Of a stretch of 6,772 bases of DNA, positions 2,601-6,772 are shown one piece after another; the first letter of the stretch is position 1; the number at the start of each line of letters is the position of its first letter. The stretch comes from Nitrospinae bacterium RIFCSPLOWO2_12_FULL_45_22 (lineage in GTDB: Bacteria; 2-12-FULL-45-22): contig MHDQ01000107.1 of NCBI GenBank assembly GCA_001803565.1, positions 1 through 6,772 of the forward strand. The letters run 5' to 3'. The position numbers were made by a program, and so were the translations under genes. Below the pieces are notes generated by a model. That model saw only the letters and a program-made list of their open reading frames with translations. It made no database searches and was not told the origin of the DNA.

Positions 2601-2867
2601 CATCTCCGTCTCATCAGAGCAATCCTGCCTAATGCCGCCCCCTCGCCTGAAAGACATCCTGTTTCATCTTACTTTACCCTTTATCGCCCTTGCGGATTCA
2701 TCCGACCTCATTCCCCGATATGGTAACAAACAGGGCATTCTGAACATACTCGGTGTAATTACCAATGATATGGGACTCGAACCTAAGACAGCCCCAACAT
2801 TCAAAAAATTAATACGCCACGGCGATCTCTATTGGGGTTTATCTAAACCGAGCACCTACCGCAATTC
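2601..2867. other. Gap with no confident gene between the leader hairpin and the insertion sequence
   Basis: About 270 bases separate the leader hairpin from the left end of the insertion sequence. A plus-strand frame is open from an ATG at 2631 through the IS end to 2943 (MPPPRLKDILFHLTLPFIAL and onward). It lacks a ribosome binding site and I recognise no family. A perfect 6-bp hairpin, GGTTTATCTAAACC, lies at 2836 to 2849. A tRNA-like T-loop string on the minus strand at about 2774 to 2788 does not fold as a tRNA arm. The stretch should also hold the promoter of the metallophosphoesterase gene, but I could not pick one out convincingly. Confidence 0.3.
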
Positions 2868-2876
2868 CAGACTTCT
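2868..2876 (+). repeat. Left terminal inverted repeat of the insertion sequence
   Basis: CAGACTTCT reads inward and matches the right end perfectly over nine bases, with further imperfect matches on both sides. It sits just past the transposase stop codon, a normal place for an IS end. Confidence 0.55.
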
Positions 2877-3102
2877 CCAAATAGCCAATGAAAGGAGGCT
2901 ATTTTTTGGACATTTTGTTAGGTCTTTCCCCAACTTCATATAGAAGGAGCTTGCCATTGGAAAGACGAGCTCCCATCTGGTTTAAAACCTGGCAAAGCTG
3001 TATCTGTGCGGCTTGGAATCTAGGGACTTCAAGCGGTTCCAGTCTTATCAGTACTGCCTCCGGATTCGTCTTGATCCACCCACGACAACGGGTAATGGCC
3101 TC

Positions 3103-3130
3103 CCTGTCTGCCAAGGCACAGGCAGGCAGG
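3103..3130. repeat. GC-rich palindromic mini-repeat inside the transposase gene, copy A
   Basis: On the minus strand this contains CCTGCCTGTGC followed, after a short centre, by GCAGACAGG. The two halves can pair as an imperfect hairpin. It shares both halves with copy B at 4020 to 4046, differing mainly in the centre. It is translated in frame as VLPACALADRE, a Cys/Ala-rich patch unlike the charged sequence around it. I read it as an inserted small palindromic element, not native transposase sequence. Confidence 0.5.
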
Positions 3131-3609
3131 ACAGGAATCAAGTCCCGAGGATTGGGGAGAAAGTTAGCAAAGAGCTCTATAAGTTTTTTCCGGCTATTCC
3201 AGACTAACGATTGGGCCAGATCCCATAAATTCTTACCTTCTGTACCGATTTCTTTGAACTTTTCTTCCTTCACCTCCGAGAGATCGATTCGCTCAGGACA
3301 CCCTTCCAACTCCTCCTGGGCGCGGGTAAGCTGGAGCTTCAATTGCTTTTGCTGCTCCTGGAGCCTCTTGCTCATACGAAGCGTACCATCCTTTTTATAC
3401 CTCAAAGGGAGCCTCCCCAGGTCGCGCTCACATTTGTTCAATCTCTTCTTTAGTTCCTTGAGCTCTTTTTGTAATTCCTTGTGCCTAGGGTTGGCTATAT
3501 CCTGTCGCTGGCTCTCCTTGTCCATCTCCAGGAGGGGATGGTAATGCATATTGAGGCGATCTCCCATATGTTTGAAGCCGTTTTCGCTAATACCCCAGCG
3601 GCCCAACGA

Positions 3610-3669
3610 GGTAAAGGTATAGGTAAAGGAAGAGGTAAAGGTAAAGGCCTCTACCTCTACCTCTACCTA
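3610..3669. repeat. Self-complementary hexanucleotide repeat tract
   Basis: On the plus strand six GGTAAA-type units (including variants GGTATA and GGAAGA) run from 3610 to 3645. After a GG step, three CCTCTA units and a degenerate CCTATT follow. The two arms are inverted versions of one another with one transition per unit, so in minus-strand RNA they pair through G-U wobbles. The tract lies at the junction of the two transposase frames. It encodes GRGRGRGLYLYLFLYLYLYL in the upstream frame, a low-complexity peptide that is clearly not part of the original protein. Confidence 0.75.
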
Positions 3670-4019
3670 TTATGGTTATGGTGTCTTCCTGGTCATCTTG
3701 GGTCGCACAGGCCACCCGACGGTCACTATCTTTGTCCCAGATGATGATCCGCCTCAGCACCCAGAGGGTACCCGTGCTGTGCTTACTTGCCTGGTTATGA
3801 TAGAGCTTCTTTTCCTCCAGGGCCTGGTACGCTTTATCATTTACCCTAAAAACTTCTCCAAAACGTCCTTCTGGTATAGCAGCCAACTCTTGGGGATCGG
3901 TATGCTTCTCCCAGGTCACAAAACGATACCCCTTCAGGGAGAGAAAATGCTCCACCCCCCACGCCTCCCGGTCAACCACAATCAAAGGCGCTTTGCCACC
4001 AATGTAGGAAGCCCACTTG

Positions 4020-4046
4020 CCTGCCTGTGCGGGGCACGCAGACAGG
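4020..4046. repeat. GC-rich palindromic mini-repeat inside the transposase gene, copy B
   Basis: The plus strand reads CCTGCCTGTGC, a GGG centre, and GCACGCAGACAGG, which form an imperfect hairpin. The outer halves match copy A at 3103 to 3130. On the coding strand it reads LSACPAQAGK in frame. This interrupts the otherwise transposase-like run between SGYYTQR and the strand preceding VVDREAWG. It looks like an in-frame insertion that kept the reading frame open. Confidence 0.5.
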
Positions 4047-5156
4047 TGACCCCGCTGGGTATAATAGCCACTGCGAACCCTCTCCTTACCATAGTAGGGA
4101 ATAAAATGCCCATCAATATAAATACACCAGAGAGAGACCAGGCCCAATTGGGCCTGTCGTTTGAAGAATTCCTCTACCAAGTCCAAAGAGACCTTCTGGG
4201 CACAGGCATGGTGTATCTTTTCCCAGAGGACTTCTCTGCTGAAGAGTTGCTTCAAACCAAGAATTTGCCCGAATTCCCGGCGATATACGGTCTTGAGCTG
4301 CTCTACCGACCTCAGATTATGAATCATCATCATGGCAAACAGGTAAACCACCAGGGCATAGCGTCCCAGATAGGATTCACAGCAACTCATAAAATCAAAA
4401 AAGCCCTGAAATATGCCCCAGTAGAGAAAACTACCGGCATATCTGCTCTCCTGAAACTCATGCGTTTCGTTGAATATCTCCGGAGGCTCTCCCAGAGCTA
4501 CAGGCTCGGGCTCTTCCAGGGGCAAGCTCATCTGCCTGCTCAGGGCCTCCTCGCGAAGTCTTCGACGTTCGGCCTCCAGTTGACGGGCCTTGTTGCCTAC
4601 CGGCAACTCCTGGCCATGCTCTTGGCGCCCCTTTCGCCGGCTACCCTTATAGCTGTTTATCAGACCTTCACGTCCCGATCTCTTGAAGGTATCTACCCAG
4701 TTATCAATGCTTTGTCGAGAGATACCAAAGGCCTCGGCCAGACGACTCTTAGTGACTCCGCACTCCAACACCAACTCTACCACCAGACTCCTGCGGTCAA
4801 TGGCCTCTTTGATATGACAGATCTTATAAGGGATGCCATAGCGATAAACGGTGAGATGGCTTTTGCCAAGCCACTCAATCGCAAAACCATTGCCGATAGA
4901 AATACGTCGATCATCTTGAGAATCGGTAGGAAAAAGGGCTTGCTGAACCATAATTGCCTCCCGTGGCTAATGAATGTTAGCTACAGCAAAGGCAACTTAT
5001 CATATCTTGCCATAATTATCAATATTTTTTACATTTATTTTACTATTTTGATAATTTTTATAATTTTTTGTAAATCCAATTCTCCAATTATTCGACTTTT
5101 TGGGTCTCTGCCCTCACAAAAAGGACATTACCAGACACCACGGTAACGGAGATCGA

Positions 5157-5165
5157 AGAAGTCTG
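5157..5165 (-). repeat. Right terminal inverted repeat of the insertion sequence
   Basis: The minus strand reads CAGACTTCT inward from 5165, the inverted partner of 2868 to 2876. The base before it (5166) closes the last recognisable HicA codon, so this is also where the toxin gene is cut. Confidence 0.55.
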
Positions 5166-5213: not shown

Positions 5214-5223
5214 ATTAATCTTT
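5214..5223 (+). repeat. Target-site duplication, left copy (ATTAATCTTT)
   Basis: ATTAATCTTT lies directly outside the left terminal repeat of the MITE-like element. It is identical to 5333 to 5342. In hicA it represents codons for K-I-N, which are duplicated. If the terminal repeat is counted as 24 bp, the duplication shrinks to 8 bp; the sequence does not distinguish the two. Confidence 0.8.
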
Positions 5224-5332
5224 AGGGGTATTACCTTGACTGCGGTTGTATCGATATATGGTGCTTTATGAAACATTCAAATACTAAATATTGGGGATAA
5301 TAGCCATTTACCGCAGTCAAGGTAATACCCCT
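5224..5332. mobile_element. MITE-like element of 109 bp inserted in hicA
   Basis: The element starts with AGGGGTATTACC and ends with its exact reverse complement. The perfect terminal inverted repeats are 23 bp long (5224 to 5246 and 5310 to 5332) around a 63-bp AT-rich centre. It is flanked by ATTAATCTTT on both sides. It has no coding capacity of its own. It interrupts a recognisable gene whose frame is restored by removing the element and one flank (119 bp), which makes the insertion direct rather than inferred. Its ends differ from those of the neighbouring insertion sequence (CAGACTTCT), so another transposase must have moved it. Transcribed RNA would fold into a long stem. The 8 to 10 bp duplication narrows the transposase family but does not fix it. 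Confidence 0.9.
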
Positions 5333-5342
5333 ATTAATCTTT
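5333..5342 (+). repeat. Target-site duplication, right copy (ATTAATCTTT)
   Basis: This is the second copy of the direct repeat, outside the right terminal repeat of the MITE-like element. It forms the end of the intact N-terminal part of hicA (codons for K-I-N at residues 53 to 55). Confidence 0.8.
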
Positions 5343-5543
5343 TCAACTATACCCTCTTTTCGAAAAATATGATGGCTGCCTCTTATCCGTTCTTCAAAGC
5401 CTAAGTTTTTCAGCAAGTTGCATAAGTCCTCGAAATGAATATTTGCATCGGATGTTCCACTAAGAATCTTGAGCAGGAGCTTCTCATGTTTACCCATCGC
5501 TTCATTTTACCAGAAATTAATGACCATTTGATTATTTTTATTA

Positions 5544-5634
5544 GCATAACGCTCCGCATGACCAGAGCGGGCAATCACGTTGGAATGAAAACGTGCCGGG
5601 CTTAACCTGCGTCTGGTCGATGTTCTTGTTAGAG
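5544..5634 (-). other. Integron attC recombination site (91 bp)
   Basis: Read on the minus strand, the site opens with the R'' core CTCTAAC (5634 to 5628) and closes with the R' core GTTATGC (5550 to 5544), close to the RYYYAAC and GTTRRRY consensus. Between them are the inner arms CATCGACCAGA and TCTGGTCATG, which pair over ten positions with a single extrahelical base. A second extra base follows in the next short helix. A separate CACGTT/AACGTG hairpin forms the variable tip. Unpaired spacers (AAGAA and CGGAGC) separate the core and inner arms, as in known attC sites. In the recombining strand both extrahelical bases are G in the first arm. The TAA of the upstream gene lies within R'', and the next gene starts 52 bases past the crossover point, a typical cassette layout. 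The length is within the usual attC range. Confidence 0.8.
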
Positions 5635-6453
5635 ATGCTCTTTATTAAGATAAAATTCCCGTAAAACAACCGTTTCCATCAGACTATCTTCTGTATCAAA
5701 GAGAGCGAGGCTGTTGATATTCATGTTATCAAGAATCTTTAACACGTTTATTCTCTCGGAAATCGGCAACGTGAACTTCCAGAGTAAATTCTCGCCTTCC
5801 TCTGCCCCTGCAAATGCATTTTCGTGAAGCATGTACATTACGCCCTGTTTGGTTTTTTCTGCGCAGATCGTATATTCACTTTGCTGCACGTAGTGACGCC
5901 GATGGCTGGGCACATTCCCTGGCAAGCTTGTAATTATCGGAGCGTTTCCGACTTGGGTTTTCCCTTGAGATCCCCACTCTATGTAAGCGTATATTCCAAC
6001 CTCCACTGTCTCTTCAGGCGGTTTATTAAATGCGAAATAAGAGGCGATATAGGGAGACTTTGTCCAGTCCAAAAGCGGCGAGGGAAATCCGTGGTGACGC
6101 AAATAGATCATGTACTCTTGCGCAGGAAACGAGTGCAGACCAAGAAGAAAATCAGTGTCTTTTGCCCATTGCTCAAAGTCGACCGATTCGACATGCCATC
6201 TCCGCCCCGCAAATGTTTCTATTTGCGGTCGAACCCGTTGTGCAATGTCAAAATACTTGCGAGCATCGAATTGATCCTGATGAGTATACCTTTCTAGAGT
6301 CGTACGAAGTTTCCAAGATGCATATGGTTGCCCACGGAACAATACATTAGATACATCCATAACAGTTTTTTTCTGTAGATCCTTGCGCTGCTCGTTTAAT
6401 TTAACCAATTTTTGTTCAAACTCGCGCCAGCTGTTTAATTTCTTTATCTCCAT
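5629..6453 (-). CDS. FRG-domain protein, probable integron cassette gene
   Basis: This 274-residue protein has the FRG motif that names its domain: FRGQPYASWKL at 39 to 49. The other conserved blocks of that family follow: YLRHHGFPSPLLDWTKSPYI (117 to 136), then ASYFAF, and QQSEYTI (190 to 196). The biochemical role of FRG domains is not established. They occur as single-domain proteins in accessory regions, and I do not assign an activity. There is no signal peptide or membrane helix. The ATG at 6453 has GGAG eight bases upstream. A strong promoter lies about 45 to 75 bases upstream. The TAA stop is embedded in the R'' core of the attC site, the usual sign of a cassette-borne gene. The length and motifs suggest an intact gene. 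Confidence 0.82.
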   Translation of the reverse strand: MEIKKLNSWREFEQKLVKLNEQRKDLQKKTVMDVSNVLFRGQPYASWKLRTTLERYTHQDQFDARKYFDIAQRVRPQIETFAGRRWHVESVDFEQWAKDTDFLLGLHSFPAQEYMIYLRHHGFPSPLLDWTKSPYIASYFAFNKPPEETVEVGIYAYIEWGSQGKTQVGNAPIITSLPGNVPSHRRHYVQQSEYTICAEKTKQGVMYMLHENAFAGAEEGENLLWKFTLPISERINVLKILDNMNINSLALFDTEDSLMETVVLREFYLNKEHL

Positions 6454-6498
6454 AGTAAGATCTCCAACATTTACTTTTATTATTCTATTTTTAGCTGA

Positions 6499-6527
6499 AG
6501 TATATATTGGAATAACCCTGATATCAA
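6499..6527 (-). promoter_or_regulatory. Sigma70-type promoter for the FRG gene
   Basis: On the minus strand TTGATA (6527 to 6522), a 17-bp spacer and TATACT (6504 to 6499) fit the consensus -35 and -10 boxes at five of six positions each, with optimal spacing. Transcription would start near 6492, giving a 5' leader of about 40 bases. It may be the cassette's own promoter or one upstream of the array. The upstream cassette boundary is not visible, so I cannot tell which. Confidence 0.65.
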
Positions 6528-6579
6528 TAATTTTTAGAGATATTTTATTGAAAATGCGGCAAATAAATCGGCATTCGGC

Positions 6580-6603
6580 ATAATGATAAATATTTATGAT
6601 TAT
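6580..6603. repeat. AT-rich 24-bp imperfect palindrome upstream of the FRG promoter
   Basis: ATAATGATAAAT is followed directly by ATTTATGATTAT, an inverted repeat with one G:G mismatch per arm pair. It lies about 50 bases upstream of the -35 box. It could be an operator-like site, or a chance palindrome in AT-rich DNA. Function is not shown. Confidence 0.35.
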
Positions 6604-6772
6604 ACCAAATCGGTTAAATTGAGGACTTTGTTACTGGAAGAATTTAAGAAGTTTCTGCTGCAAAAGAGACCATTAAGCCTCAATATATCCCCTGGAGTTA
6701 TTATCTTACCCTTTTCAACCTAAGGTATAGATTTCTCCCTGTAGTCTTGCCTTCATCCAAATAACCTCAGGG
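6604..6772. other. Right edge with no confident gene
   Basis: Together with the promoter region this makes about 319 bases without a gene upstream of the FRG start. Short open stretches exist on both strands. One plus-strand example reads LLEEFKKFLLQKRPLSLN and onward, and a minus-strand frame reads IITPGDILRLNGLFCSRN. Neither has a convincing start, ribosome binding site or recognised family. No integron integrase, attI or second attC palindrome is visible here. Confidence 0.3.

Follow-up and report, generated by a model that had tools for sequence, protein, structure and literature searches.

An attC recombination site at the end of an FRG-domain gene marks a probable integron cassette in a Nitrospinae bacterium

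Integron gene cassettes are mostly of unknown function. When the bottom strand of a canonical attC site folds, its extrahelical bases protrude on the same side, arranged as T-N6-G. The closest described sites are those of class 1 cassettes (aadA1, aadA2, cmlA and others; locus L087), which have R'' and R' boxes, spacers, an L'' arm with a GAC pattern and one extrahelical G in the bottom strand, and which lie at the 3' end of a gene whose stop codon is close to or within R''. Sedentary chromosomal integrons, such as those of Vibrio and Xanthomonas, have an intact intI, tens of attC sites, and cassettes of the toxin-antitoxin and restriction type. In 2025, Darracq, Getz and Kieffer described integron cassettes with anti-phage genes whose defence was tested in the laboratory, according to the passages of PMC12444791 that cite these works. 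In PMC9503650, the Frg domain is assigned to the ART superfamily and described as a possible NADase in prokaryotic immunity.

Here, we analysed a 6772-bp stretch of DNA (the window), which is an entire contig (G000:C107), and found an attC site at the end of an FRG-domain gene. This site shares all of the class 1 features listed above; it differs from class 1 attCs in its R' box (GTTATGC), in its 40-nt variable loop, and in the base opposite the normally extrahelical T, an A, which may displace the bulge by one position. The genome resembles the Vibrio and Xanthomonas integrons in all three respects named above; however, its sites are spread over many contigs of a fragmented assembly, in which two or more integrases are intact and several others are broken. 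The FRG protein has the same profiles and motifs as FRG/PDC-S15 proteins, with the difference that its gene is, most probably, carried in an integron cassette. Its cargo type, a candidate defence gene, is that of the cassettes of Darracq, Getz and Kieffer, whereas the defence by FRG is a prediction. The plus strand of the window is the bottom (recombinogenic) strand of the attC, and the site has the following parts:

5544 to 5634, minus strand: attC recombination site, 91 nt (model R1, 32.1 bits with the site held out; model R2, 23.8 bits; sequence)
5628 to 5634, minus strand: R'' inverse core CTCTAAC, with the FRG stop codon TAA within it at 5629 to 5631 (sequence)
5612 to 5618, minus strand: L'' arm GACCAGA, partner of 5560 to 5566 (sequence)
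5560 to 5566, minus strand: L' arm TCTGGTC, partner of 5612 to 5618 (sequence)
5544 to 5550, minus strand: R' core GTTATGC (sequence)

The GACCAGA and TCTGGTC arms form seven ungapped pairs; further inward, a bulged C precedes two G-C pairs and a bulged A precedes another two pairs. Two 9-nt spacers separate the arms from the R boxes. CTCTAAC fits RYYYAAC except for its first base (C for R), and GTTATGC fits GTTRRRY except at position 5 (T for R), where a T is also present in 5/16 of the other attC sites of the model set from the same genome. At 91 nt, the imperfect palindrome with its L boxes and unpaired spacers lies within the 57-141 bp of attC sites, and both covariance models described below align to it from end to end. 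By the core rule (PMC3053210), the recombination point is expected in R', between 5550 (G) and 5549 (T). The first-pass annotation, made from the letters of the window, had described a TAA stop of the FRG gene inside an R''-like CTCTAAC and a GTTATGC core closing a 91-bp site, and both are as claimed (minus strand, 5634-5628 and 5550-5544, 91 nt overall); its pairing of the inner arms over ten positions with an extrahelical base and spacers was about right, at 7 + 2 + 2 pairs with two bulges.

The folding free energy was unusual neither for the strand as read (z = -1.64) nor for the recombinogenic bottom strand (z = -1.31). Hence, the case for an attC rests on the covariance models and not on stability. 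The bottom-strand fold has a single extrahelical G beside the GACCAGA/TCTGGTC stem, as an attC should show. The motif T-CTGGTC-G is present in the site, with the G bulged in the fold and the T able to pair with an A. Since this A stands opposite the usually bulged T and may shift the bulge, recombination of the FRG attC may be inefficient.

Model R1 was built from 16 attC sites on other contigs of the same genome, with the window site excluded; R-box scans, stem scans and inspection of the contig sequence around integrases supplied the training sites, on which the classical attC pairing was imposed. Conserved in their alignment are AAC/GTT, one T and one A of the left arm, the GA of the extrahelical region and a T.A in the right arm. 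We found 84.7% of the cells paired versus 67% after shuffling, and a covariation score of 0.434 versus 0.138; this covariation collapses once the partners are shifted by one base. Applied to the window, R1 scored 5634-5544 on the minus strand at 32.1 bits, the ends and the strand both being exact (E = 2e-6; genome-wide E = 0.0011), and the next non-overlapping match reached 13 bits. That match, at 1096-1160, was set aside as chance, being weak and not recurring at that strength with R2.

Model R2, made from twelve attCs of plasmid integrons only (class 1 and cyanobacterial), gave 23.8 bits at the same site (E = 5e-5), with the next match in the window at 6.3 bits. In the R2 genome scan, in which the best 150 of 528 candidates were scored, the window site is absent among the at least 56 sites listed. 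An Rfam scan of the window gave no attC family and nothing above the gathering score. On class 1 integrons, R1 recovered 6/6 attCs in L087 and 3/4 in L086, all on the array strand and at 31.5-55 bits. Other loci, totalling 79 kb and in several cases containing integrase fragments, yielded a single match, to a site already listed on contig C287. Hence, R1 was counted as a valid attC detector. Two simpler approaches were rejected. A pattern scan for R'' plus GTTATGC was too loose and returned real attCs (C261 and C281) together with random matches, and an ad hoc stem score placed the attC below a purine-rich repeat at 3601-3681, so covariance models were used instead. As both models pick the exact site, the attC proposed from the letters is borne out: 5544-5634 on the minus strand is a genuine integron attC site.

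The assembly comprises 3.67 Mb in 321 contigs, and is thus fragmented, with 85% completeness and 1.3% contamination. With R1, at least 65 attC sites reached E < 0.01 across the genome, distributed over 33 contigs; this figure includes the window site and most training sites. Intact integron integrases that exceed the curated cut-off of 265 are encoded on two contigs, with 467 bits for C243 and 439 bits for C304, and many fragments are present as well; 14/14 control genomes fell below this cut-off. The C243 integrase is 56% identical to a Kovacikia minuta protein and 49% to IntI1, and this contig has the textbook layout of intI, upstream region, first cassette, attC, HigBA-like pair (higBA) and attC. 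C304 carries seven attC sites on the strand opposite to intI. Across C243, C304, C115, C136, C17, C95, C287 and C317, we noted two or more intact integrases and several broken ones, many with an attC on the same contig; the integrase-bearing contigs are either several integrons or one split by assembly. A second genome of this phylum, which belongs to the same order, was examined; it gave five attC matches and encodes an intact integrase (506 bits).

On the window contig, R1 found a single attC. IntegronFinder 2.0 calls a CALIN from at least two attC sites by default (PMC9024848), so under these defaults this contig is not a CALIN and would go unreported. The first-pass annotation had named three outcomes that would count against its attC, namely no covariance match, no further attC sites nearby and no integron integrase in the genome. 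Only the second of them was observed: the covariance run matched at 32.1 bits, and the C243 and C304 integrases lie above the cut-off.

The other end of the FRG gene was read from a leader that recurs elsewhere in the genome, and the features of this part of the window are:

5629 to 6453, minus strand: FRG-domain gene, 274 aa (Pfam PF08867, 8e-18; PADLOC PDC-S15, 4e-33)
5550 to 6467, minus strand: putative whole FRG gene cassette, 918 bp core to core (attC at one end, shared leader stopping at a GTT core at the other)
6462 to 6468, minus strand: GTTGGAG core, attI-like, bordering the FRG cassette on its 5' side (last point of identity with C238)
6468 to 6611, minus strand: leader, probable attI/Pc region (BLAST; recurs on C238 and C28)
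6499 to 6527, minus strand: promoter-like TTGATA-17-TATACT, directed at FRG (consensus match only)

By BLAST of the window against its own genome, the leader is 94% identical over 96 nt to C238:27-122 and 80% identical to C28:4274-4418. The identity with C238 passes through the core (GTTGGAG/GTTAGAG, 6468-6462) and then ends, with 7/30 bases matching beyond it, which is the chance level. Behind the leader, C238 has a chorismate-mutase-like gene; an attC occupies 451-505, and after it comes a methyltransferase-like gene (both names from translations). Two different genes after one leader, with the switch at G/TT, are what insertion at attI gives. As a separate observation, 142-2345 of C238 (L053) comprises this first cassette and, beyond the attC, the methyltransferase-like gene plus a third gene; this may be a cassette of the restriction type.

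We found cores of the GTTRRRY type at both borders of a single gene in the attC orientation, the 5' border being placed by the leader. The FRG start codon lies 14 nt past the border-core G, with GGAG in between. Both promoter hexamers also occur in C238, and C28 has the variants TTGACA and TACAAT, which suggests that TTGATA-17-TATACT in the leader is a cassette promoter; such hexamer matches are frequent by chance, so this promoter is support and not proof. The C28 copy of the leader adjoins a dprA-like gene with no intI between them, which is odd for an attI. No intI was seen beside any of the leader copies (window, C238 and C28) or in the 305 bp between the core and the right contig end, and R1 gave no attC signal at 6462-6772 with filters off. 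A near-perfect AT-rich palindrome at 6573-6610, upstream of the attI-like leader and present also on C28, is a possible protein-binding site.

Because the leader is shared up to the core and is then followed by different genes, FRG is probably the first cassette beside attI, and hence the array need not continue rightward. The earlier proposal that FRG is cassette-borne thus holds, with an attC at one end and a shared leader ending in a core at the other. Its companion, that the array goes on beyond the right edge toward an integrase, is not supported: to the right of FRG lies the GTT core behind a promoter-bearing, attI-like leader shared with C238.

Three other accounts of these observations were weighed. 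The site could be a terminator or another hairpin at the FRG end that carries CTAAC and GTTA termini by chance; this is extremely improbable. Its fold, at the z values given above, is indeed not unusually stable, and a stop codon can lie within CTAAC in the absence of an attC, as at the end of locus L091, CTCTAACA, which gives no attC match. However, two models, one of them from wholly outside this genome, single out the exact ends and the coding strand, no T run follows the site, and a recombination core is also present at the opposite end of the gene. Hence, the held-out matches and the second border have already refuted a chance hairpin in practice.

The remaining two accounts accept the attC and concern the leader. 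That on C238 the same leader precedes another cassette, then an attC and additional genes, as a reused attI gives, and that the leader ends in a GTT core, both speak against a secondary-site event, in which IntI would have put the FRG cassette into a promoter region outside the integron and the leader would not be attI. We regard such an event as unlikely, even with the C28 leader copy beside a dprA-like gene without an adjoining intI, the lone attC on the window contig, and the off-target integration by integron integrases described in passages of PMC10127599 counted in its favour. It is quite unlikely, too, that the leader forms the tail of a preceding cassette, promoter-bearing or gene-less, with a decayed attC, which would make FRG internal and extend the array to the right. 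Multi-cassette arrays in this genome (C304 and C17) and the gene-less promoter cassettes of large integrons, known from passages of PMC11014356, are compatible with such a cassette, but there is no attC signal at 6462-6772 even with filters off, and on C28 the leader occurs without any attC.

We therefore favour, with a probability of about 90%, the attC of a single-gene FRG cassette running from 6468/6467 to 5550, most likely the first behind attI and a cassette promoter at about 6468-6611. In such a cassette, IntI would fold the plus strand of the site into the attC hairpin and cut at G/TT, moving the FRG gene in or out through recombination of the attC at 5544-5634. The leader would be the attI, its promoter would express FRG, and the intI would lie beyond the contig end or act in trans. 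The FRG protein may then act against phages as an NAD-using enzyme of the ART type.

On the other side of the attC, a HicA-like frame begins 47 nt past the site, and this part of the window contains:

5231 to 5497, minus strand: hicA remnant, with its frame running into the insert (PF07927, 28.8 bits; alignment to C122 and C2)
5224 to 5332, no strand assigned: 109-bp insert splitting hicA, with 24-bp perfect terminal inverted repeats (repeat search; empty site C122:7147-7312)
2866 to 5163 (ends approximate), minus strand: insertion sequence remnant with a frame-broken transposase at 3587-4951 and 2899-3606 (ORFs and HTH matches; both ends together on C218)

The intact C122 relative aligns with the window hicA in two pieces (99% and 95%) that overlap by 10 bp, and the insert is flanked by a 10-bp direct repeat (5214-5223 and 5333-5342). 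Hence, the window hicA carries a 109-bp insert with a 10-bp target repeat. Homology to intact hicA resumes beyond the insert down to about 5167, and the right end of the insertion sequence abuts the lost 3' part of the gene; the hicA pieces were compared separately, with the gene not reassembled. Window BLAST on the genome found no second full copy of the insert. Dispersed, REP-like repeats of about 25-37 bp lie in the transposase region at 3095-3139 and 4020-4046, with a dozen-odd near-exact copies on other contigs. A purine-rich repeat at 3609-3671, which breaks the transposase frame, is also found on C92 and C138.

As hicA is split and shortened and no hicB was found in the window, the locus lacks an intact HicAB module. 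R1 found no attC after hicA in the window, and the hicA relatives on C122 and C2 are not beside an attC. HicAB-like pairs do lie beside attCs elsewhere in this genome, on C156 (between two attCs) and C228. Since no attC follows, the relatives lack attCs and the gene is broken, its status as a cassette is doubtful; hicA may belong to the flanking DNA beyond the final attC, or it may be a damaged cassette. Of the suggestion that the attC joins FRG to hicA as cassette cargo, what stands is the positional adjacency.

The FRG protein has conserved RG and RHHGxPxPLLDW motifs in addition to its Pfam and PDC-S15 matches. Foldseek with the predicted model (pLDDT 87) gave ART toxins as the top matches, which were non-significant (E 0.013). 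By its PDC-S15 match, the gene is a predicted candidate for anti-phage function. A relative on a Rhizobium plasmid sits within a type I restriction operon. We found no FRG in phages and no other FRG gene in this genome, and a single-sequence search of the genome and viral contigs gave no close relatives, so an alignment was needed to find them.

The comparison set comprised 80 FRG loci from named genomes (490 kb), most of them not beside an attC. R1 made six matches in this set, all on the FRG strand and four touching the FRG gene; by a rough estimate, the chance of at least 4/6 random matches falling next to the gene end is near 1e-5. Two of the four are firm. In Omnitrophota (L101, 36.1 bits), the attC ends 12 nt before the FRG start, and the FRG stop TAA lies within CTATAAC with a partial attC after it; in Ectothiorhodospiraceae (L116, 28.0 bits), the FRG stop lies within GCCTAAC. 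The deltaproteobacterial match (L118, 24.7 bits) is intermediate, with the stop within CTCTAAC and a second attC-like site further on, and the match adjoining FRG in Cellvibrionales (L154, 17.4 bits) is weak. The stop codon is thus inside R'' in 3/4 of the attC-adjoining relatives. The R' core is damaged in several of the FRG-adjoining sites, which may therefore be old. Loci L091, L092 and L094, whose FRG stop also lies in CTAAC, were left out as they have no attC structure.

We consider it possible, at somewhat less than even odds, that FRG (PDC-S15) genes are recurrent integron cargo across several bacterial phyla, traded as ready-made anti-phage effectors of the ART type, with the gene here in the first, expressed position. 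Our search of the published literature found no paper on an FRG-integron link, which is not proof of absence. Some novelty lies in the repeated association of FRG genes with attC sites, the attC itself being of a known kind.

Many cassettes protect against phages according to the 2025 laboratory work, as reported in passages of PMC12444791. The FRG gene is a single-gene defence candidate, found as a probable cassette here and beside an attC in up to four unrelated lineages, and it would be easy to test. The analysis also places a large integron system in this lineage, where it is present in both of the two genomes examined.
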